The position numbers were made by a program, and so were the translations under genes. This document shows positions 40,152 to 52,566 of a stretch of DNA of 64,000 bases, in pieces. Origin of the DNA: Stenotrophomonas sp. 57 (GTDB taxonomy: Bacteria > Pseudomonadota > Gammaproteobacteria > Xanthomonadales > Xanthomonadaceae); the NCBI RefSeq assembly GCF_030291075.1, contig NZ_CP127407.1, forward strand, positions 2,416,001-2,480,000, read 5' to 3'. The notes beneath the pieces are model-generated. The model was not told where the DNA came from and did not search any database. It worked only from the letters and a program-made list of their open reading frames with translations. The number at the start of each line of letters is the position of its first letter. Position 1 is the stretch's first letter.

Positions 40152-41963
40152 GTGCGTCAATGCCTCCGTTTTCCACGGCCCCATCCGATCGTTCTGGTCT
40201 GGGCCGCCGCACTGTTCTTCACCACGTTTGGAAACATCGCCCTCTGGAAGACGCTGTGGGGCCTGACCGACCTCAACAGCCTGCGCAGCGTGCTGTTCCT
40301 GGCCAGCTTGCCGGTGGTGCTGTTCTGCCTGTTCAACCTGGTGCTGACGCCACTGCTGGCACTGCCAGTCCTGCGCAGGCCGCTGCTGGCCGTACTCATC
40401 GTCACCAGCGCCGCCTGCAGCTATTTCATGCTGCACTACAACGTGCTGATCGATCGCAGCATGGTGCAGAACGTGTTCGAGACCAACCAGGCCGAACTGA
40501 ACGCCTACCTCTCGCTGCCGCTGCTGCTGAGCCTGCTGATGCTGGGCGTGCTGCCCGCTGCCGGGCTGGCTTGGGTACGCACCACCAGCGGAGCGGGTTC
40601 GATACGTTCGCTGCTGGTGTGGCCGGCCAGCGTCCTGGCGTCGTTGCTGGTGCTGCTGGCGATCGGCTTCGCGTTCTACAAGGACTATTCCTCGCTGTTG
40701 CGCAACAACCGCTACATCCGTGACCAGGTGCTGCCGTTGAACGTCGTGCGCCATACACACGGTTATCTGAAAAGCCTCTACAGCACCCGCCAGCAACCCT
40801 TGCGCCCGATCGGCGAGGACGCGAGGCGCGTACCGGGCCCGCGACCGAAGCTTGTGATAATGGTCATCGGCGAGACCGCGCGATCACAGAACTTCCAGCT
40901 CAATGGCTACCTACGCGCGACCAATCCCCGACTCTCGCGCAAGGAGGGCGTCATCAGCTTCAGTGATGTTTCCTCATGCGGAACCGCAACGGCGATCTCG
41001 GTGCCGTGCATGTTCTCGCAGATGACCCGCCGCCAGTACGACGATGTACGCGCAGCGACCGAGGAGAACGTGCTCGACATCCTGCAGCGCACCGGCATCA
41101 GCGTGCTTTGGCGCAACAACAACAATGGCGGCTGCAAAGGCGTGTGCGAACGCGTGCCCACCGAGGACATGCCCGCGCTGAAGGTGGCCGGCCAATGTGT
41201 CAATGCCGACGGCACCTGCTACGACGAGGTGCTGCTGCATCAGCTCGGCACACGCATTGACGCCATGAACGGTGACGCCCTGGTCGTGCTGCACCAGCTG
41301 GGCAGCCACGGCCCGACCTACTTCGAGCGCTACCCTGCCACATCGCGGGCATTCGTCCCGACCTGCGACAGCAACCAGATCCAGCGTTGCAGCAACGAGG
41401 CGCTGGTCAACACCTATGACAACACCCTGGTGCATACCGACCTCGTGCTGGGCCAGGCCATCGATCTGCTGCAGGGCTATTCGGACCAGCGCGATGTAGC
41501 CCTGATCTACGTCTCCGACCACGGTGAGTCACTGGGCGAACGCGGCATGTACCTGCATGGCACGCCCTACTTCATCGCCCCGCGCGAGCAGACCCAGGTA
41601 CCTATTGTGATGTGGTTCTCGCCGGACTTCGGCCGCAACGTCGGCCTTGATATGGCGTGCCTGAGCACTACTGCGCTGCACGAGGCACACAGCCATGACA
41701 ACGTCTTCCATTCACTGCTGGGCCTGTTCGGCGTCAGCAGCGCGGTGTACCAGCGCGATCTGGATGTGTTCGCCGGATGCCGGGCGTCGGCCACGCCATC
41801 GGTGGCCGCCTCGCCGACGAGAAAACAGCGCCGGCTGATGCCGGTCGCTGCCCGGAACGTGGCGCGTTACTGCGCCGCCAGGGCGAAATCCAGGCCTGCA
41901 CACACCGCTGCCACCTGGGCGTCGTTGCATTCCTGCGGGTTGGTGCGCGGGCTGTCCGGGTAG
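40152..41963 (+). CDS. eptA: Lipid A phosphoethanolamine transferase (EptA/MCR family) with C-terminal run-on
   Basis: 603 residues from GTG 40152. Membrane helices lie in the first 170 residues; the periplasmic sulfatase-like domain has VIGETARSQNFQLNGY, the nucleophile Thr in SSCGTATAISVPCMFS, QLGSHGPTYFERYP and YVSDHGESLGERGMYLHG for zinc binding. It adds phosphoethanolamine to lipid A, lowering polymyxin binding. Homologues end at about 545-550 residues, near VFAGCR; here the frame continues about 55 residues of low-complexity sequence and overlaps the convergent M14 gene by 97 bp, suggesting a lost stop codon. The shared upstream repeat suggests control by the two-component system at 37730-39633. 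Confidence 0.92.
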   Translation: MRQCLRFPRPHPIVLVWAAALFFTTFGNIALWKTLWGLTDLNSLRSVLFLASLPVVLFCLFNLVLTPLLALPVLRRPLLAVLIVTSAACSYFMLHYNVLIDRSMVQNVFETNQAELNAYLSLPLLLSLLMLGVLPAAGLAWVRTTSGAGSIRSLLVWPASVLASLLVLLAIGFAFYKDYSSLLRNNRYIRDQVLPLNVVRHTHGYLKSLYSTRQQPLRPIGEDARRVPGPRPKLVIMVIGETARSQNFQLNGYLRATNPRLSRKEGVISFSDVSSCGTATAISVPCMFSQMTRRQYDDVRAATEENVLDILQRTGISVLWRNNNNGGCKGVCERVPTEDMPALKVAGQCVNADGTCYDEVLLHQLGTRIDAMNGDALVVLHQLGSHGPTYFERYPATSRAFVPTCDSNQIQRCSNEALVNTYDNTLVHTDLVLGQAIDLLQGYSDQRDVALIYVSDHGESLGERGMYLHGTPYFIAPREQTQVPIVMWFSPDFGRNVGLDMACLSTTALHEAHSHDNVFHSLLGLFGVSSAVYQRDLDVFAGCRASATPSVAASPTRKQRRLMPVAARNVARYCAARAKSRPAHTAATWASLHSCGLVRGLSG

Positions 41964-42935: not shown

Positions 42936-43589
42936 ATGGCGAACGCAGCGCAGCCGGTCCTGGGTGGACCGGAGTTCCTCCGCCTGCTCGCCCGTCTCAG
43001 CGACGGCGCGATGCCGGCCACCAGTCCCGCCCTGACCGATCGCCTCGGCCAGTGGGTGGACTGGAGCCGCGCCGTGGCGCTGTCCGGGGCGCTCGGCGGG
43101 CGCCTGCCCGAGGCAGGCGAGGCCACCGAAGCGGTCGAGGATGTGTTGGCCGACTGCGCCCAGGCCCGCGCCAGCCTGCTGGCCTCGATCCGCGAGGATG
43201 CCGAGGCCGAGCGCCTGCTCGACCTGGCGGAAGCCGCCGCTGCGCCCAACTTTGCCTCGCTGCGCCAGCGCTACCGGGTGCTGCAGCAGGCCATCCAGAC
43301 CGCCACCGGGCGCCTGCGCGGCCGCCTGCGCGACCAGTTGGTACAGGCGTCGCCGGAACTGGCGCGGCTGGCCGAGGTCGATGCGGTGATGGAGCAGACC
43401 CTCACCCCGCGCGAGCACAGCCTGCTGGCCACTGCGCCGGCGGTGCTCGGCGCCCGTTTTGAACGCGTGCACGGCCAGCCTGGCTGGCGCGCGGCCTTCC
43501 GCCATGACATGCGCACGCTGCTGCTCGCCGAACTGCAGCTGCGCTTCCACCCGATCGAAGGGCTGCAAGACGCCCTGCGCTCCTACTGA
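42936..43589 (+). CDS. DUF3348 protein, first gene of stator-like operon
   Basis: 217 residues from ATG 42936, preferred over an in-frame TTG at 42918. The protein is soluble and largely helical: GGPEFLRLLARLSDG, LGQWVDWSRAVALSGAL, TPREHSLLATAPAVLGARFE and WRAAFRHDMRTLLLAELQLR are recognisable DUF3348 blocks. There is no known biochemical activity. The next gene, a MotA/ExbB-like membrane protein, starts 10 bp after its stop, and DUF3348 genes are regularly found at this place, so it is probably an accessory or cytoplasmic partner of the membrane complex. An AT-richer TGTAAAAT 20 bp upstream may be the promoter -10. Confidence 0.82.
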   Translation: MANAAQPVLGGPEFLRLLARLSDGAMPATSPALTDRLGQWVDWSRAVALSGALGGRLPEAGEATEAVEDVLADCAQARASLLASIREDAEAERLLDLAEAAAAPNFASLRQRYRVLQQAIQTATGRLRGRLRDQLVQASPELARLAEVDAVMEQTLTPREHSLLATAPAVLGARFERVHGQPGWRAAFRHDMRTLLLAELQLRFHPIEGLQDALRSY

Positions 43590-43599
43590 CCGGAACACC

Positions 43600-45864
43600 A
43601 TGTCCAGAACTGCTTTCCATGTCGTTGTTTTCCTTGTCGGCCTGCTGGCCGTGTGCTGGATCGGCATTGGCTACGTTTCGGTGCATCCGCTGGGTGCAGC
43701 GGTAGCGGCAATCATCGCGGCCTGCTACATCGCCGGTGGCGTAGAGCTGTACCGTTACCGCCAGGCCAGCAATGGCCTGCGCAGCGCGCTGAACGACCTG
43801 TCCAGTGCGAAGGCAAGCCTCGCCCCCTGGCTGGAGCGCGTGCCGGTGGGCCTGCGCAACGCCGTGCGCCTGCGCGTGGAAGGCGAGCGCACCGCCCTGC
43901 CCGCACCGGTACTGACCCCGTACCTGGTGGGGCTGCTGGTGCTGCTGGGCATGCTCGGCACGCTGCTGGGCATGATGGACACCCTGCGCGGCACCGGGCT
44001 GGCGCTGCAGAGTGCGACCGACATGGCCGCGATCCGCGGCTCGCTGGCCTCGCCGGTGCAGGGCCTGGCGGTGGCATTCGGCACCTCGATCGCCGGTGTG
44101 GCCAGCTCGGCCATGCTCGGCCTGCTGGCGGCACTGCTGCGTCGTGACCGCCTGCAGGCCGTGCAGCAGCTGGACCGCGCCATTGCCAGCGACCTGCACC
44201 CGTATTCGCAGGCCTGGCAACGTACCGAATCGCTGCGCCTCCTGCAGGCACAGTCCGCCGCCCTGCCGGCGCTGGTCGACCGCCTGCAGGCGATGACGCA
44301 GACGTTTGAACAACACAGCACGGCCGCCAACGAGCGCCTGCTGGCCGGCCAGGCCGAGTTCCTGACCCAGAGCCAGGCGCTGCAGGAACGCCTGGCGGTG
44401 TCGCTGCAGGAGTCGCTGCGCGAGGGGGCTGAAGCCAGCGCCGCTGCCATCGGTGGCGCGCTGCAGCCGATGGCCGAAACCACTCTGACCGGTCTGGCTC
44501 ACCATGGCGAAGCACTGCACGCCCGCATCGAGCAGGCCGTTCAGCAGCAGCTGGCCGGCCTGAGCGACGGCTTCGAGCGCAGCCGCGTTGCGACCGAAGC
44601 GAGCTGGGCCAAGGTAGTGGGTGAACAGAGCCAGGCACAGCAGGCACTGGTACACGATCTGCGCCAGCACCTGCAGGCGTTCAGCGATGGTCAGGGCACG
44701 CAGGCCGAAGCACTGGTCGCGTGCATCGGCGAGCGCCTGCAGGCCGATGCACAGGGCAATGCGGAGGCCTTGCGTACCGCCGCCGAGCAGCAGCAGGCCC
44801 TGAACAGCGCGCTGGTCGAGCGCCAGCAGCAGGCGTTGATCGCCGCCAGCGAGCATCTGGACGCGCGTGCGCAGGCGCTGCTGCAGGCACTGGAACAGCA
44901 GCACAGCGCCAATCAGTCGCTCTTCCAGGACCACGAACAGCAGCGCTTGCAGGATTGGCAGGCCGCGCAGGCAGCTGCTGCCACCGCGCACGCCGAGCTG
45001 CAGGCCAGCCTGGACCGCCGCGAACAGCAACGCCAGGCGCGCTGGGACGCGGTCAGCGCCGAACTGCAGCAGGCCCACGCCGCGCTGCAGGCGCAGCTGC
45101 AGGCCGGCGACGAACAGCGCCTGCAGCGGTGGAGCGATACCCTGCAGCACGTTTCCACCGATCTGGCCGAGCGCCTGCAGGCCAACGGCGAGCGCCTGGC
45201 TGCGCAGCAGCAGCAGGTCTGCGACACGCTGGCGACGACCGCACAGCAGATCGGCGAGAACGGCCGCGCCCAGGCCAGCGCCACGCTGGCCGAAGTCTCC
45301 ACCCTGCTGCAGACCGCTGCCGCCGCACCGAAGGCCGCTGCCGACGTCATCAATGAGCTGCGCAGCACGCTGTCCGAGAGCCTGGTGCGCGACAACGCAA
45401 TGCTGGAAGAACGCGGCCGCCTGCTGGCCACCGTGCAGACCCTGCTCGATGCGATCAACCATGCGTCGCACGAGCAGCGCACGGCGGTGGACGCGCTGGT
45501 CGGTGGCTCGGCCGAGTTGCTGGAACGCGTCGGCAACCGCTTCACCGACCATATCGCTGCCGAGACCGGCAAGCTGGACGGCATCGCCGCCGCGCTCAAC
45601 GGAAGTGCTGCCGAGGTGGGCCAGCTGGCCGGCACCTTCGGCGAAGCGGTCGCGCAGTTCGGCGCCACCGCCACCGAGCTGTCCGGCCGCCTGGAACAGA
45701 TCGGCGGTGCACTGGATGCATCGCTGGCGCGCAGCGATGAACAGCTGGCCTACTACGTGGCGCAAGCGCGCGAGGTGGTCGACCTCAGCCTGCTGTCGCA
45801 GAAGCAGGTGATGGAAGAACTGCAGCATCTGGCCGCGCGCCGCGGCAAGAGCGGCAACGCATGA
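43600..45864 (+). CDS. DUF802 protein: MotA/TolQ/ExbB-like membrane base with long coiled-coil tail
   Basis: 754 residues. Four membrane helices: about 6-26, 30-50, 107-127 (VGLLVLLGMLGTLLGMMDTL) and 157-180 (AVAFGTSIAGVASSAMLGLL). The last two, with Gly/Thr/Ser-rich faces and an intervening SPVQGLAVAFGTS, follow the MotA/ExbB/TolQ proton-channel pattern. Residues about 185-740 are a Gln/Ala/Leu-rich coiled coil projecting into the cytoplasm. This plan, channel plus long tail, is also that of ZorA of Zorya anti-phage systems. The stop overlaps the OmpA/MotB-like gene by 4 nt, so the two proteins are very probably subunits of one ion-driven complex. The function is unknown. Confidence 0.88.
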   Translation: MSRTAFHVVVFLVGLLAVCWIGIGYVSVHPLGAAVAAIIAACYIAGGVELYRYRQASNGLRSALNDLSSAKASLAPWLERVPVGLRNAVRLRVEGERTALPAPVLTPYLVGLLVLLGMLGTLLGMMDTLRGTGLALQSATDMAAIRGSLASPVQGLAVAFGTSIAGVASSAMLGLLAALLRRDRLQAVQQLDRAIASDLHPYSQAWQRTESLRLLQAQSAALPALVDRLQAMTQTFEQHSTAANERLLAGQAEFLTQSQALQERLAVSLQESLREGAEASAAAIGGALQPMAETTLTGLAHHGEALHARIEQAVQQQLAGLSDGFERSRVATEASWAKVVGEQSQAQQALVHDLRQHLQAFSDGQGTQAEALVACIGERLQADAQGNAEALRTAAEQQQALNSALVERQQQALIAASEHLDARAQALLQALEQQHSANQSLFQDHEQQRLQDWQAAQAAAATAHAELQASLDRREQQRQARWDAVSAELQQAHAALQAQLQAGDEQRLQRWSDTLQHVSTDLAERLQANGERLAAQQQQVCDTLATTAQQIGENGRAQASATLAEVSTLLQTAAAAPKAAADVINELRSTLSESLVRDNAMLEERGRLLATVQTLLDAINHASHEQRTAVDALVGGSAELLERVGNRFTDHIAAETGKLDGIAAALNGSAAEVGQLAGTFGEAVAQFGATATELSGRLEQIGGALDASLARSDEQLAYYVAQAREVVDLSLLSQKQVMEELQHLAARRGKSGNA

Positions 45865-46499
45865 GCGACGAGCTGGAGGTCGATGGCGGCTCGCACGCCC
45901 CGATCTGGGCCGCCTTCGGCGACCTGATGTCGGTGCTGCTGGGCGCATTCGTGCTGATCCTGGTCGGCGTGGTCGCGGTGCAGCTGGAGCTGTCGCAGCG
46001 GCTGGACCAGGAAGTGAAACAGCGCCAGGCCGAGGCCAAGCGCCTGCAGACGCTGGAACAGGCGTTGGCTGGACCGCTGGCGGCCGGCCGCGTGACGCTG
46101 GTGGATGGCCGCATCGGCATCAGCGGCAGCGTGCTGTTCGCGCTGAACTCCGACCAGCTGCAGCCGGAAGGCCAGGAGCTGCTGCGCAGCCTGGCCGCGC
46201 CGCTGGCCGCCTACCTGGGCAGTCGCGAAGAGATCCTGATGGTCAGCGGCTTTACCGATGATGCGCCGGTGCGCGAAGGCAACCGCCGCTTTGCCGACAA
46301 CTGGGAGCTGTCCGCGCAGCGTTCGCTGACCGTGACCCGCACCCTGATCGCCGATGGCGTACCGGCTGACGCCGTGTTCGCCGCCGCGTTCGGCAGTGAG
46401 CAGCCGGTCAGCTCCAATGCCAGTGAAGAAGGCCGCGCACGAAACCGCCGCGTGGAAATCGCGCCGATTCCCAAGCCCAAGGCCCCGGATGGCAAGTAA
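45861..46499 (+). CDS. MotB-like OmpA-domain protein
   Basis: 212 residues. One membrane helix (about 15-41, WAAFGDLMSVLLGAFVLILV) carries an Asp at 21 where MotB and ZorB have the proton-binding Asp. A short linker leads to the OmpA/MotB peptidoglycan-binding domain: VLFALNSDQLQPEGQELLRS, MVSGFTDDAPVREGNRRF, NWELSAQRSLTVTRTLI and SNASEEGRARNRRVEIAP. It would anchor the DUF802 ring to the cell wall, as MotB anchors MotA. It starts in a 4-nt overlap with the DUF802 gene; the DUF2894 gene begins 11 bp before its end. Confidence 0.9.
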   Translation: MSDELEVDGGSHAPIWAAFGDLMSVLLGAFVLILVGVVAVQLELSQRLDQEVKQRQAEAKRLQTLEQALAGPLAAGRVTLVDGRIGISGSVLFALNSDQLQPEGQELLRSLAAPLAAYLGSREEILMVSGFTDDAPVREGNRRFADNWELSAQRSLTVTRTLIADGVPADAVFAAAFGSEQPVSSNASEEGRARNRRVEIAPIPKPKAPDGK

Positions 46500-46866
46500 A
46501 CCGCCCGCCCTGGAAGGCCTGCGCGCATTGGTGCGTGACCTCGATGCGGGGTCGCGCTCGCTGCCGCATTACCCGCAGGTGCCGATGCTGCAGCAGGTGC
46601 AGCGCGAATGGTCGGAGCTGCGCAGCGAACTGCAGGTGCGCCGCTCGCTGCGCGCCGAGGCCCCCGCCGATGGCGGCCCGCTGAACTCGGCGGTGCTGGT
46701 GCAGCGCATGCTCGATACGATGCAGGCGACCAGCCCTGGCTACCTGCGCCATTTCATCGACTACGTCGACACCTTGTCCTGGCTGCAGGCGCTGCAGGAT
46801 GGCGCCGCCAGCGGCGGTGAGACCGCAAAGCCGAAACGGACACGCAAGCCGCGCAGCGCGGGTTGA
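46489..46866 (+). CDS. DUF2894 protein, last gene of stator-like operon
   Basis: 125 residues from ATG 46489, overlapping the OmpA/MotB-like gene. DUF2894 blocks: LPHYPQVPMLQQVQREWSEL, RSELQVRRSLRAEAPAD and SPGYLRHFIDYVDTLSWLQA, followed by a Lys/Arg-rich tail (KPKRTRKPRS) suggesting nucleic-acid or membrane-surface contact. Unknown function; always considered with its DUF802/OmpA neighbours. The overlap implies coupled translation. Confidence 0.8.
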   Translation: MASKPPALEGLRALVRDLDAGSRSLPHYPQVPMLQQVQREWSELRSELQVRRSLRAEAPADGGPLNSAVLVQRMLDTMQATSPGYLRHFIDYVDTLSWLQALQDGAASGGETAKPKRTRKPRSAG

Positions 46867-47109
46867 ACACATTACGCCGACCTCGTTCGGCGCCCCTTGG
46901 ACACGACAATCCTGATCCACGCTGCTGGTTACGCCAACATTGCTTGGCGCTTATCGACTCCCAGCAGCGCTGCTGTCCAATCGCTACCGCGAGCCAACCA
47001 CGTCAATGGTTGACCAACTTGAACAGCTTAGGGCGACTGCCATTGACGTCGAATGACGAATTCCACAGTGTCTTACTGCCCTCATTGCACACGAATTCAA
47101 TCTCAACAA
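46867..47109. other. Low-GC gap without a recognised gene
   Basis: About 240 bp between the DUF2894 stop and the SMI1-like gene. The base composition is visibly lower in GC than the neighbours and frames show no known domain. I see no promoter or repeat that I can support. Confidence 0.4.
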
Positions 47110-47574
47110 ATGCAGCCTTCAGTAGAAGCCAGACTTCTCAAGCTCCGCGCGAATCTCAACGAAGCCGAGATGTACCTTGGCCCTCCACTTGGACGTTCTG
47201 ACGTCGACGCGCTCCAGAGCTTGGTGCTTTCTACGCTAGGTATCACCCTGCCGGAGTCCTATCTGGGCATTCTTTCGCGCCACGATGGCTTGGCAGCAGC
47301 AGGAGTCTTCCTCTACTCGAGCACTTCACGCTCATACCGCGATGGCGGGTCAGCGCTTGCTTTTGTGGAAATGAACCTTCTCGCTTGCGACCAGGGATCC
47401 ATGGGCGGCTATGTAGAACTCGGAGAGAGCGATATGGATTGCTACGTCTTTGAATTCGCAACAGGGCGGTACCAGGTCCGTGACAAAGTAGCGTTCGATA
47501 ATGTCTACGAAGAACTCACTTCATTAGATGGCCTACTCGGTCACATCATCGGTCTGATCGAACAGCATTGCTGA
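47110..47574 (+). CDS. SMI1/KNR4-superfamily (SUKH, YrhA-like) protein, probable orphan immunity protein
   Basis: 154 residues from ATG 47110; an upstream in-frame ATG at 47053 would add a CPHC-containing segment that is not family-like. SUKH features: LVLSTLGITLPESYLGILSR, HDGLAAAGVFLYSS and YCYVFEF-like MDCYVFEFATGRYQVRD. SUKH proteins are commonly immunity proteins for contact-dependent or Rhs nuclease toxins. No toxin lies nearby. Lower GC and rarer codons than its neighbours suggest recent acquisition. Confidence 0.75.
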   Translation: MQPSVEARLLKLRANLNEAEMYLGPPLGRSDVDALQSLVLSTLGITLPESYLGILSRHDGLAAAGVFLYSSTSRSYRDGGSALAFVEMNLLACDQGSMGGYVELGESDMDCYVFEFATGRYQVRDKVAFDNVYEELTSLDGLLGHIIGLIEQHC

Positions 47575-47675: not shown

Positions 47676-48434
47676 TCAGCCGCGCAGGGTGGCGCCACCG
47701 TCCACGTACAGGTCGCTCATCGCTACGTGCCCGGCCTGCTCGGAGAGCAGGAACATCACCGACTGCGCGATGTCCTCGGGGGTGGCCAGCTTGCGCAGTG
47801 GGATGCCGGCCTTGTAGGTCTCCAGGTTGCCGGCGATCACCCGTTCGGCGCCGTGCTCGTCCTGCCACATGCCGGTCTGCATCGGGGTCAGCGTGGACCC
47901 CGGGGCGACGATGTTGCAGCGGATGCCCAACGGCGCCAGCTCCAGCCCGAGGCAGCGGGTGAACATCGTGGCGGCGGCCTTGGATGCCGCATAGGCGGCC
48001 ATGCCATGCCTCGGCACACCGGCCGCATTCGAGCTGACGGTAACCATCGCGCCCTGCCCGCGCGGCGACATCACCCGCGCCAGGGCACGCCCGACATGGA
48101 ACACCCCGTCGGTGTTCACCGCGAACACCCGGCGCCAGTCGTCATCGCCGGTCTCGGTCACGCCGCCCACATGCAGCACACCGGCTACGCTGGCGGCCAG
48201 CATGATCGGCCCGATGCTGGACTCGACCTGATCCACCAGGCCGTCCACGGCGGCACTGTCGGTCACGTCGAGCGCAAAGGTGTGCACACGCACATCTGCC
48301 GTAACAGGCGCCTCGCGATCGGTCGCCACTACGGTGCAACCGGCCTCGGCCAGCAACCGCACCAGTGTCTCGCCGATGCCACCGGCAGCGCCGGTCACCA
48401 ACGCCACGCGGCCTTTGAAACCGGTCAACTGCAT
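47676..48434 (-). CDS. entA: 2,3-dihydro-2,3-dihydroxybenzoate dehydrogenase EntA
   Basis: 252 residues from ATG 48434. Short-chain dehydrogenase motifs: [20 protein letters not shown], the YxxxK site in [16 protein letters not shown], and the substrate-side region [20 protein letters not shown] characteristic of EntA. It oxidises 2,3-dihydro-DHB to 2,3-dihydroxybenzoate with NAD. It is the last gene of the siderophore operon; its ATG lies 10 bp inside the entF end. Confidence 0.93.
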
Positions 48435-51400
48435 GTTGCGATCTCCTGTTGTTCGTCCCATTGGCGCAAGCGTGCCGACAACCACGGTGCCAGCTGCGCC
48501 ACTGCGTCGCGGCCGGTCAGCTCGGCATGCAGGAACGGCAGTTCCAGCGCCTGCACCCTGCGCGCATGCGCCCGCCACAACGCCGACTGCAGCTGTGGCC
48601 GTGCCTGATGATCGTGGCCCGCGCGGACGTGCACCAGGGTGCCGTCGAACGGCTGGTGAATGTGTTCGCGGATCAGTCGATTGGTGCCGGTCACGGCGCG
48701 CACCACGCCGTCCAGCACCACATCCGGCAGACTGCCGAGCGCACTGCCGCCACGACGCAGGAACGCGAGAATGCGTTCCCGGCTGTCCAGTTCCGGATGC
48801 GCATCCGGGTCATGACCGGCAATCGCCAGCAGTGCCCGCAATGCGGCGATGGCATCGGGCTCCGGCTCGGCCCGCCAGCACTCGCAGGGATAGGCGTCCA
48901 GCAGTACAAGTTCGCCGACCTCGCGCCCGATCTCATGCAGTCGCACCGCCATCGCCTGGGCGAGGATGCCACCCACCGACCAGCCCAGCAGGTGCACCGG
49001 CCCCTTCGGCTGTAGTGCGACCACCCGCTGCACGTAATCATTGGCCATTGCCTCGATACTGGGCGGCAACGGCTGCTTCGGATCGAGTGCCGGCGACTGC
49101 AGGCCATAGACCGCACGCGCCGGCTGCAATGCCCGGGCCAGGGCACGGTAGTTCCAGGCAATGCCACCGGCCGGGTGCAGCACGAACAGCGGCACGGTGT
49201 CGGCCTCGGGCGCAGCCAATGCGATCACCGGGCCCAATGCGTGATCAGCGAGCGCAGGCGGCTCAGCAATGCGTACCGCAAGCGCAGCCACCGTGGGTTG
49301 TGCGAACAGCGCCCCCAGGCCGAGATCGCAGCGCCAGCGCTGCTCAATGGCCAGCAGCAGGTGCACCGCAGACAGCGAATCGCCGCCTAGGCTGAAGAAG
49401 TCGGCGTCGACCGCCACCGGCTCGGCGAGGCCCAGGGCCTGAGCGAACAGGCCCGCCAGCTCCCGCTCCAGCGGTGTGCGCGCGGCCATCCCTGCCAGCA
49501 CCTGCTGCGGCGGCTTCGGCAGCGCGTTGCGGTCGAGCTTGCCGTTGGCCGTCACCGGCCAGTGGTCCACACCGACAAACGCCGAGGGCACCATATAGTC
49601 CGGTACGCGCGTGGCCAGGTGGCTTCGCAGCAACACAGCATCGGCACGCGCGGTTGGCACATAGGCGACCAGCCGGGCATCGCCGGGCGCGTCCTGGCGC
49701 AGCAGCACTTCCACCCGCTCCATGCCGGGCAGTTCGCGCAGTGCCGCCTCGATCTCGCCCAGTTCGATGCGCAGGCCGCGAAGCTTCACCTGATGGTCGC
49801 TGCGGCCCAGGTATTCGACCGCGCCATCGCCACGCCAGCGCGCCACGTCACCGGTGCGATAGATGCGCTCGCCAGGCAGGAACGGGTCGGCAAGGAAACG
49901 CTCCGCGGTCAGGTCGTCGCGGCCCAGATAGCCACGCGCCAGCTGCACGCCACCGAGGTAGAGATCGCCTGCCACGCCCACCGGCAGCGGCTGCATCCGG
50001 GCGTCCAGCACGTACAGGCGGGTGTTCCAGACCGGGAAGCCGATCGGTACCGGTCGCGAGCGATCCTGGGCCGGGGCGGGCCAGTAGCTCACATCCACTG
50101 CCGCTTCGGTCGGGCCATACAGGTTGTGCAGGTCGGCGTGCATGCGCGCATGGAAGCGATCACGCAACGCTGCATCCAGCGCCTCGCCACTGGTGAAGAC
50201 CCGTCGCAGCTGCAGGCCTTCAGAGGCCGGTGCAGCGAGGAAGGCATCAAGCATCGACGGCACGAAATGCACCGTGGTGATGCCATGCTCGCGGATCAGC
50301 CGCGCCAGTTCGGTGGGGTCACGATGCGCGTCCGGTCCGGCGACCACCAGCGTGGCCCCGCACAGCAGCGGCAGGAAGAACTCCCAGACCGACACATCGA
50401 AGGTGGCCGGGGTCTTCTGCAGCACGCAGTCGTCTGCCTTGAATCCATAGTGCTCGCGCATCCACAGCAGGCGGTTGACGATGGCGCGGTGTTCGATGAC
50501 CACGCCCTTGGGTTCCCCGGTCGAGCCGGAAGTGTAGATCACGTAGGCCGCATCGTCAGGTGCAGGATCGGCCCACGGCGCGGCAAAACTCAGCGCAGTC
50601 CACTGCTCCGGCGCAAGCACCGGCACATCGGCCACACGCGCCGAGACGTCCGCCGCTGCCAGTACGCACACCGGCTGTGCCGAGGCCAGAATACGCGCCA
50701 GGCGATCGTCGGGATGAGCAAGGTCCAACGGCAGATAGGCGGCTCCGGCACGCAGCACCGCGACCAGCGCCATCACCAGCTCCAGCGAGCGCGGCAATGC
50801 CACCGCCACCACGCTGCCCGGGCGGACGCCCATCGCGCGCAGCTGTGCTGCCAGCGCGAAGCTGCGCGCTTCCAATGTCGCGTAGTCCAGCGTGGAAACA
50901 CCGGAGACCAGCGCGGGTGCGTGCGGATCACGGTCCATGCCCTGCTGCAGCAGCTCGACCAACGTGGTCGGTGGCAGCGCATGCGCGGTGGCATTGAAAC
51001 CATGCACCACCTGCTGCGCTTCTTCGGCGGTGGCCAACGGCACGGCCGCGATGTCTTCAGCCTGCAGTGCCGCCGACACGAAATGCAGCAGCCGCGCCGC
51101 ATGCGCCTGCACATCCCCGCGACTGTACCGCGCGGGGTTGGCCTCGATCTCCAGATCCAGCAGGCTCTGGCCATCACCACGGAAGCCCAGCGTCAGGTCA
51201 TCCACAGGCCCGGTGCACAGCACCTCCAGGGTCGCCTGTAAGCCTGGCAGGGCCAGTGGCCTGTAGAACGGCTGCACATTCACCATCGGACCGTGCAGGC
51301 GCTGCTGCGCGCCCACCAGGCCCAGATCCCGGCGCAGTTGCTCGCCTCGGTAACGGCCATGCTTGCGCCCCTGGCTGAGCTGGCGACCCAGGCCCCGGGC

Positions 51401-52312
51401 AAAGGCCTCGACGCTGCCCTCGCCGGCCGCCACGCGCAGCGGCAACACATTCATGACCATCGCCGGCACCCGCGCCGACGCATTGCCCAGCCGCCCCATG
51501 TAGGGCACGCCCAGCACCACTTCATCGGCGGCACTCATCCGCCGCAGGTACTCGGCCGACAGCGCAGCCAGCACATCCGGCCAGGGTTGCAGCCAGCCTG
51601 TCGATACCTGCAGCAGGCGCTCGCGGAACGCCGCATCAAGCGGCTGCACCCAGCGCAGCGCGTCGTTGCTTGACTCCAGCGTTCCCGCCACGCCAGCGCC
51701 GGCCGGTGCGCCCTGCATCTGTTCGCGCCACCACTGCCCAGTTGCTGCACGGCGCCGATCGGCCCGGTAGGCGACGTCATCGGCCAGCACGCCCGCCAGC
51801 CCTGGCAGCGGCTCACCTGTACGACCGGCATACAACGCGCACACACGATCGGTGAACAGCGCCATGCCGTAGCCATCGGCGGCCAGATGGTGCACACGCA
51901 GGTACCAGACCCAGCGCTGCTCGCCCAGATCAAGCAGCAGCTGCTGGCTGATCCGGTCGCGGGTGGGATCCACCGGGCTCAGCCGGTCGGCCAGCATCAG
52001 GCTGCGCGCCGCAGCTGCGGGATCCGCCTCGGCGGAAACATCACGTACCGAAAGCCGTGGCACGTGCGCCGGCTCATGCCACTGCACGGGCTGGCCATCG
52101 GCACCCTCGGCAAAGCGCAGCGCGAAGGCCTCGGCTTCGACCGCCGCCTGGTCTGCCGCCGCAACGAACCCCGCCACGTCCAACGGGCCGTCGATCCACA
52201 CCGCATGCGCGGTATTGAATGACGGATTGTCCGGCGCCAGCCGCTGTGCGAACCACAGTCCGGACTGGGCCTCGGTCAGCGCCACCGGCATGGCCAGCGC
52301 GACGGCGTTCAT
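48425..52312 (-). CDS. entF: Non-ribosomal peptide synthetase EntF
   Basis: 1295 residues from ATG 52312, with domain order C-A-T-TE. Condensation domain (about 10-440): [10 protein letters not shown]. Adenylation domain (about 460-970): [55 protein letters not shown]. Carrier domain: [15 protein letters not shown] with the phosphopantetheinyl Ser. Thioesterase (about 1050-1290): [15 protein letters not shown] with the nucleophile Ser. In enterobactin synthesis EntF activates serine, joins it to DHB and cyclises the trimer. S. maltophilia makes an EntC-dependent catecholate reported to differ from enterobactin, so the product is not certain. A PPTase (EntD) is needed and is not encoded here. 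Confidence 0.94.
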
Positions 52313-52566
52313 GCGCTCTGCGCGGCCTGTAGCGCCTGCACAACGCCCCACCACTGGCGCAGCGTGGTGTGCTCGGCCAACTGCGAGAACTCCAGCGGAA
52401 GGCCGGTGTTGCCCCAGGCCAGGACCAGGCCGAGCATGCGCATCGAATCCAGGTCCAGGTCGATCAGGTTGTCGTCGTCACCGATCTCGGCCGGCGAACA
52501 TTCCAGAACGCGCGCCACGTCGGCTCGCATCCGCTCCAGATCCAGCACCTCACCCGTGGCGGCCAT
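52309..52566 (-). CDS. Stand-alone aryl carrier protein (EntB')
   Basis: 85 residues from ATG 52566, sharing TGATG with the entB stop; a GTG one codon upstream is also possible. It is a single carrier domain: LECSPAEIGDDDNLIDLDLD followed by SMRMLGL, the Ser carrying phosphopantetheine. In E. coli this aryl carrier is the C-terminal domain of EntB; here it is a separate protein, the EntB' of the S. maltophilia entCEBB'FA operon. It holds DHB loaded by EntE and presents it to the EntF condensation domain. Confidence 0.88.
   Translation of the reverse strand: MAATGEVLDLERMRADVARVLECSPAEIGDDDNLIDLDLDSMRMLGLVLAWGNTGLPLEFSQLAEHTTLRQWWGVVQALQAAQSA

Follow-up and report, generated by a model that had tools for sequence, protein, structure and literature searches.

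The window analysed here is a stretch of 64,000 nucleotides of Stenotrophomonas sp. 57 (positions 2,416,001 to 2,480,000 of contig NZ_CP127407.1), and the question that it raises concerns four closely packed genes between its positions 42936 and 46866. Two of the encoded proteins resemble the components of ion-driven membrane motors, and the other two belong to the families DUF3348 and DUF2894: are they a stator of the flagellar or Tol/Ton type, a maintenance machine of the cell, or a defence against phages? We consider it very probable that, in a genome of the Stenotrophomonas maltophilia group, they form a Zorya type III operon directed against phages, made of an ion-driven motor and two adaptor or effector partners.

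The four genes and their relation to Zorya type III

All four genes lie on the forward strand, overlapping or spaced by 10 nt, much as the original prediction, made from the DNA sequence alone, had described them; an operon is predicted from this layout. The first gene (42936..43589) encodes a DUF3348 protein of 217 residues, matched by Pfam PF11828 (E-value, E, 3.9e-59) and by the PADLOC model PDLC00658 (E 3.9e-77). It is followed by zorA (43600..45864), whose product of 754 residues carries DUF802 in its tail and is matched by the PADLOC model ZorA3 (PDLC00647, E 0, 1077 bits). The zorB gene (45861..46499), joined to zorA by an ATGA overlap, encodes 212 residues matched by ZorB3 (PDLC00651, E 1.3e-115). 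The last gene (46489..46866) encodes a DUF2894 protein of 125 residues (Pfam PF11445, E 9.1e-26; PADLOC PDLC00654, E 1.6e-72). Its start is ambiguous, being either an ATG at 46489, which gives the quoted length and an 11-nt overlap with zorB, or a GTG at 46423; the scans against PADLOC, Pfam and NCBIfam were run on the longer open reading frame (ORF) beginning at 46354, rather than from the shorter start. An antisense ORF of 848 residues (43402-45948) is taken to be a shadow frame of high-GC DNA.

The PADLOC-DB models matched by the four genes are all those of Zorya type III, and the type I and II models fit ZorA and ZorB of the window far more weakly (1077 bits for ZorA3 versus 45.5 for ZorA1, and 382 bits for ZorB3 versus 66.6 for ZorB1). 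The genome is a single contig of 4.44 Mb with one DUF802 match. The closest DUF3348 matches that bear names are mostly annotated as S. maltophilia or Stenotrophomonas sp., and the named loci 95-97% identical to the window come from S. maltophilia and near Stenotrophomonas species.

The four-gene set is already known as Zorya type III, and hence is not new as a discovery. The type was defined in 2021 from 6,401 loci (Payne et al., PMC8565338). In the same paper the operon of S. nitritireducens DSM 12575, once cloned, reduced plaquing in E. coli, and the two DUF proteins were proposed to take over from ZorC, ZorD and ZorE as regulators of ZorAB. The original prediction had also arrived at a Zorya-like stator with two partners replacing ZorC/D/E; this agrees with the published type III, but its novelty does not stand. 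The tested operon shares with that of the window the four families, the gene order and the genus. They differ in sequence, the window proteins being 47% (DUF3348), 50% (ZorA), 77% (ZorB) and 40% (DUF2894, over 72 residues only) identical to those of the S. nitritireducens locus (L258), and the window DUF2894 being without the N-terminal part. The names of the partners are exchanged between sources: DUF3348 and DUF2894 are, respectively, ZorF and ZorG in Payne et al. 2021, and ZorG3 and ZorF3 in PADLOC-DB.

Distribution, surroundings and descent

Of 91 Stenotrophomonas genomes, 87 gave a DUF3348 match (83 of the 86 of good quality), as did all 35 genomes of a second genus (g18) and all 20 of a third (g16). 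As for the four misses, one genome (G030) has a zorA3 match at the start of a contig, another (G071) is 76% complete, and two (G016 and G021) gave neither a DUF3348 nor a zorA3 match. Stop codons were counted by the tool within the zorA matches of G030, G055 and G068. As a yardstick, hsdR was above its cut-off in 19 of the 91 Stenotrophomonas genomes, and matched in 45 at E<=0.001. There is one DUF3348 match per genome throughout g18 and g16; where two are found, in seven Stenotrophomonas genomes, they are neighbouring pieces of one frame, and two genomes of the family show an extra match, weak and partial. Presence at a single locus is near-universal in the three genera, and nearly every sampled species of Stenotrophomonas and Xanthomonas retains one Zorya III copy.

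Of the 297 genomes and 54 genera sampled in the family, 129 and 19, respectively, have DUF3348, and 168 genomes and 35 genera are without it. Across the class it was found in 8 of 369 genomes, four of them from the window's own family, and in one genus of the same class in 7 of 18. Records of a plasmid collection, all from betaproteobacterial genera, include 27 with DUF3348 and 27 with DUF2894, and the counts per genus agree between the two. A record labelled Bacillus subtilis SK7B5 (JAHREJ010000010.1, L217), a label which is probably wrong, also has a Zorya III operon of the Stenotrophomonas type.

The four reading frames of the window are all open. In five within-clade comparisons the ratio of non-synonymous to synonymous substitution rates (dN/dS) was 0.03-0.07 for zorB, 0.05-0.13 for DUF2894, 0.11-0.19 for zorA and 0.10-0.23 for DUF3348; a sixth, far more distant comparison gave 0.20-0.63, with dS up to 0.76. 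Within the clade, the operon is under purifying selection.

The order DUF3348-zorA-zorB-DUF2894 is intact in all of the 56 loci fetched from relatives and in 79 of 80 named loci, two sets that partly overlap; the single miss is cut by the end of a contig. The same order is found in 2 of 2 annotated betaproteobacterial replicons, in metabolic surroundings. A survey of the neighbourhood, proposed in the original prediction in order to tell a core locus from a defence island, gave a core-like picture in the three genera, and no recognised defence surroundings in 39 loci. Flanking families occurring in at least 2 of the 56 loci numbered 407, of which 352 were found in one genus, 47 in two and 8 in three of the 18 genera. 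A tie to some already characterised process had been considered as well: no flanking family exceeds 7 of the 56 loci or 3 of the 18 genera, so no constant neighbour claims the operon for such a process. Some genera do share the neighbourhood of the operon, but no neighbour is general.

The neighbour scan covered 39 of the 56 loci and 141 of 156 genes (15 were left out), picked by a rule based on length and on GC content at third codon positions, with long ones cut at 3000 bases. At E 1e-10, 21 PADLOC families were matched, each by 1 of the 141 neighbours, SngC, PsyrT and PbeA among them; most of these families are helicase models, which probably cross-match one protein. ZorC, ZorD and ZorE are absent from the PADLOC families matched by the 141 neighbours, the window's four included. 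A defence-island setting was rejected, given how few of these neighbours match defence models. Of their 133 Pfam families, the 25 shown belong mostly to metabolism, transport and regulation, and TonB-dependent receptors account for 5 of the 141.

The tree of ZorA, ZorB and DUF3348 was built from 53 of the 56 loci, G119 being dropped for want of RpoB, G366 for broken frames and G037 for a broken ZorA. Its agreement with the RpoB tree covers several shallow clades and is lost among the deeper branches. Approximately unbiased (AU) tests under LG+G4 reject genus monophyly for g17 (p 5e-8), g16 (4e-79), g29 (0.002), g11 (0.0125) and g1 (0.002); g7, g18, g4 and g27 are clades in the operon tree. The tested groups were chosen after the operon tree had been seen, and the comparison rests on GTDB genus codes; as the RpoB tree does not unite g1 or g17, part of the rejection may be a matter of taxonomy. 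We read these trees as pointing to an intact cassette that may have moved between lineages and sites, and was then kept.

The distribution bears directly on the alternative that survives best, namely that the operon is a core motor of Xanthomonadaceae for the maintenance of envelope or chromosome, related to Zorya, and that the protection against phages in E. coli either results incidentally from over-expression or reflects only one of its tasks. In its favour are the presence of DUF3348 in 87 of 91 Stenotrophomonas genomes (an 88th having zorA3 at a contig edge), of which only 19 have hsdR above its cut-off, its presence in every sampled genome of the two other genera (35 and 20), and its retention at one locus per genome under purifying selection; yet 168 of 297 family genomes and 35 of 54 sampled genera are without DUF3348, which one would hardly expect of a core machine. 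The rejection of genus monophyly in five genera, with the reservations just given, suggests a cassette that travels from genus to genus, which is how defence systems behave. The scarcity of recognised defence genes among the neighbours and the lack of a recognised effector enzyme again suit a core motor, but for a homologous operon protection has been shown in E. coli (PMC8565338). Core defence systems are known besides: type III Zorya is core at the species level in Ralstonia solanacearum and, among highly conserved defence systems against mobile genetic elements, all kinds pooled, only 1.2% lie in defence islands (PMC13064858). Like the operon described here, such conserved systems occur in nearly all members of a taxon, the counts being made within species there and across the species of whole Xanthomonadaceae genera here; neither Stenotrophomonas nor Xanthomonas is named in the main text of that paper. 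The distribution of Zorya has been called differential, as is typical of anti-phage systems, with type III frequent in Xanthomonas and Stenotrophomonas, among other genera (PMC11890865), and a Variovorax strain is listed with Zorya type III (PMC11953036). In B. cenocepacia K56-2, for which Zorya III is predicted, infection altered the transcription of only one or two genes at the front of the Zorya operons, and CRISPR interference with predicted defence genes affected fitness against the temperate phage Bcep176 in no case (PMC12584637), a knock-down result which, although limited to one phage, favours the core motor. Altogether we regard a core motor as unlikely, and keep to the Zorya type III defence operon.

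Some observations concern the genes next to the operon in the window. Just downstream (47053-47574) lies an ORF of 173 residues with a low third-position GC of 0.55 and no Pfam match, for which tblastn found only short, weak matches, in the loci of six relatives; it is likely a recent insertion. Further on, on the reverse strand (47676-52354), a short-chain dehydrogenase-like ORF is followed by an ORF of 1309 residues, whose motifs we take to be those of a non-ribosomal peptide synthetase; the pair also adjoins the operon in some other Stenotrophomonas loci (e.g. L071 and L079). Upstream (40152-41963) a phosphoethanolamine transferase of the EptA/EptB type is encoded (PF00884, PF08019), for which no link to the operon was seen, and which is missing from the part of the sequence fetched for several relatives.

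The predicted motor and its helical tail

The second protein had been predicted to contain four membrane helices, the last two of the MotA/TolQ type, and both points hold. Hydropathy of ZorA suggests four membrane segments, at about residues 8-26, 30-48, 108-126 and 158-180. An automatic segment count split the peaks and was not clean, with exactly 4 segments in only 3 of 56 relatives, so that the figure of four rests on a reading of the profile and of the alignment. The segments 108-126 and 158-180 fall in the MotA/TolQ/ExbB region, and a profile of 25 ZorA N-terminal regions matches the solved type I ZorA (8vvn_C, E 2.1e-6) over the last two membrane helices alone. T121, T162, S163 and S170, invariant in the 25 sequences, are inside the stretch aligned with 8vvn_C and are candidates for a Ser/Thr ring facing the Asp of ZorB. 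In Pfam, ZorA is matched by DUF802 (PF05650, E 2.5e-6) and by MotA_ExbB (E 3.4e-4, 20.8 bits, just below the cut-off of 22.9).

The third protein has, as foreseen, one membrane helix, an aspartate and an OmpA domain. The membrane segment of ZorB spans residues 22-40 by hydropathy. Asp21 (D21; codon 45921..45923 on the forward strand, from its position in the translation), the predicted ion-carrying residue, is part of a motif F[GA]DLM found in 56 of 56 relatives. The OmpA-type domain (PF00691, E 3.3e-18) is predicted to bind peptidoglycan; MotB_plug matches with E 0.068 and 13.2 bits, against a cut-off of 24.

In the solved type I and II complexes a critical Asp of ZorB (D24 in type I, D21 in type II) packs against a ring of Ser/Thr residues from the surrounding ZorA subunits, and defence requires ion flow, peptidoglycan binding and the ZorA tail; these types carry a predicted helicase (ZorD) or nickase (ZorE) (PMC11890865). 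The window proteins share with them the ZorA channel helices and long tail, and the membrane Asp and OmpA-type domain of ZorB. They differ in having four predicted membrane segments in ZorA, and the operon has neither ZorC, ZorD or ZorE nor a recognised nuclease or helicase.

An accessory flagellar stator, or a motor of the Tol/Ton type, unrelated to defence, is a highly improbable explanation of the same pair, and was rejected. MotA/TolQ/ExbB-family channel helices with an Asp-bearing partner helix are indeed common to MotAB, TolQR and ExbBD and to the window proteins, and the MotA_ExbB and OmpA domains, together with the alignment of the last two membrane helices to a MotA/TolQ/ExbB-type ZorA, are what such a motor would show. 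However, ZorA3 and ZorB3 are the best models by hundreds of bits, whereas MotA_ExbB (20.8 of 22.9 bits) and MotB_plug (13.2 of 24 bits) stay below their Pfam cut-offs; the very long helical tail and the two DUF partners also set the operon apart, and it has no constant flanking family and few TonB-dependent receptors (5 of 141) around it. Flagellar stators are not known to carry such a tail or such partners.

The cytoplasmic tail of ZorA, from residue 191 to residue 754 (44170..45864, forward strand), is 564 residues long and contains 4 prolines. The original prediction had described it as a coiled coil of 550 residues: the long helical tail stands, while a classical heptad over its whole length does not. 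Its hydrophobic periodicity is 3.66 residues, near the hendecad value (11/3), and the repeat is mainly hendecad-like. The power at 3.6 or 3.667 was reached by 0 of 500 shuffles of the tail, whereas at the heptad period of 3.5 the power over the whole tail was no better than that of shuffles. Of 54 relatives, 48 have their best period at 3.655-3.675 and the other six at 3.56-3.60 (G037 and G366, with their broken ZorA and broken frames, were left out of the 56 loci for tail statistics). The window tail is not uniform, its period shortening from about 3.70 next to the membrane to about 3.57 over the C-terminal 150-190 residues.

Differences in ZorA length between relatives are mostly tail insertions or deletions (indels) of 11, 40, 51, 80, 84, 91, 102 or 116 residues. 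Their sizes cluster modulo 3.64 (R 0.85, 38 events, gaps of <5 residues and tree edges with <60% identity, 5 of 53, being excluded), and 0 of 5000 jittered sets were as high at any period between 3.4 and 3.9. The events share branches, and so are not fully independent; the 18 distinct sizes alone gave R 0.73-0.74, with 1 of 5000 jittered sets as high. Multiples of 11 were rejected as a description (245 of 1808 pairwise gaps), and whole turns of about 3.64 residues fit. Indels in whole helical turns are as expected of an in-register helical bundle, and a tail quantised in this way predicts that whole-turn length changes are tolerated, and fractional ones not.

The two partners and a possible mode of action

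No enzyme domain was recognised in DUF3348 or DUF2894 by using Pfam, PADLOC and NCBIfam. An AlphaFold2 model of DUF3348 is all-helical, with good confidence (predicted local distance difference test, pLDDT, 81.5) save for much of residues 1-60. An apparent fusion of DUF3348 to a second domain, with >500 extra in-frame residues upstream in L103 and L111, was rejected, as codon-position GC marks the extra part as the shadow of another gene. DUF2894 is predicted to be helical at low confidence; N66, S67, R73, Y85 and D94 are invariant among 84 aligned sequences, of which 35 are of 144 residues or less, 35 have an N-terminal motif (median 200) and 14 are long without the motif. A basic C-terminal tail is present in 116 of the 119 relatives counted, which suggests a possible contact with nucleic acid or membrane. 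A decayed, non-functional Zorya III copy in the S. maltophilia clade, to which a DUF2894 of 125 residues (about 200 in many relatives) and a DUF3348 of 217 residues (246 positions in the model) might point, has next to no likelihood in view of four open frames, dN/dS of 0.03-0.23 in the five within-clade comparisons and the short DUF2894 common to many entries of Stenotrophomonas and the S. maltophilia group.

Several observations weigh against the identification as a Zorya type III defence operon. It is unusual for a defence system to occur in almost all species of three genera, and the knock-down in B. cenocepacia was without effect on fitness against the one phage used. ZorA of the window reaches only 29.1 bits with the NCBIfam model ZorA_2, against a cut-off of 100, and the best NCBIfam model for ZorB is an unnamed 'hypothetical protein' family. 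No nuclease or helicase, as in types I and II, was recognised in the operon, and the explanation therefore lacks an effector step. Finally, DUF2894 is without some 75 N-terminal residues present in many relatives, and no assay of the window operon itself was found; given the moderate identity to the tested operon and the short DUF2894, the activity may differ.

With these points taken into account, an ion-driven sensor and transmitter is the best reading of the operon. The most likely arrangement of ZorA and ZorB is a ZorA5-ZorB2 motor in the inner membrane, driven by ions that flow past Asp21 of ZorB. Should a phage cross the wall or disturb it, the OmpA domain of ZorB would engage peptidoglycan and the motor would be released; a motion or conformational change would pass down the ZorA helical tail of about 560 residues into the cytoplasm, and DUF3348 and DUF2894, at or near the tail, might act as adaptor or effector and stop the infection. 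For type III we infer the 5:2 stoichiometry, what triggers the motor, where the partners bind and how the phage is stopped; among open-access papers and the few subscription ones covered, none was found that deals with the structure or the mechanism of this type.

A further proposal, which we make tentatively and with more doubt than belief, is that type III is a nuclease-free, ion-driven machine that whole genera of Xanthomonadaceae retain as a single, near-obligatory copy, an intact four-gene cassette that changes its chromosomal site again and again and is exchanged between lineages without extra copies building up. It might act through a mechanical or nucleoid-directed step, involving the tail, the DUF3348 adaptor and the basic tail of DUF2894, rather than by cutting DNA, and might have a native role beyond phage defence. 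Types I and II bring a predicted helicase or a nickase, and type III has neither in recognised form, yet a type III operon protects. Given near-universal retention next to a patchy hsdR, Stenotrophomonas and the two related genera are a natural place to study this motor in its own host.

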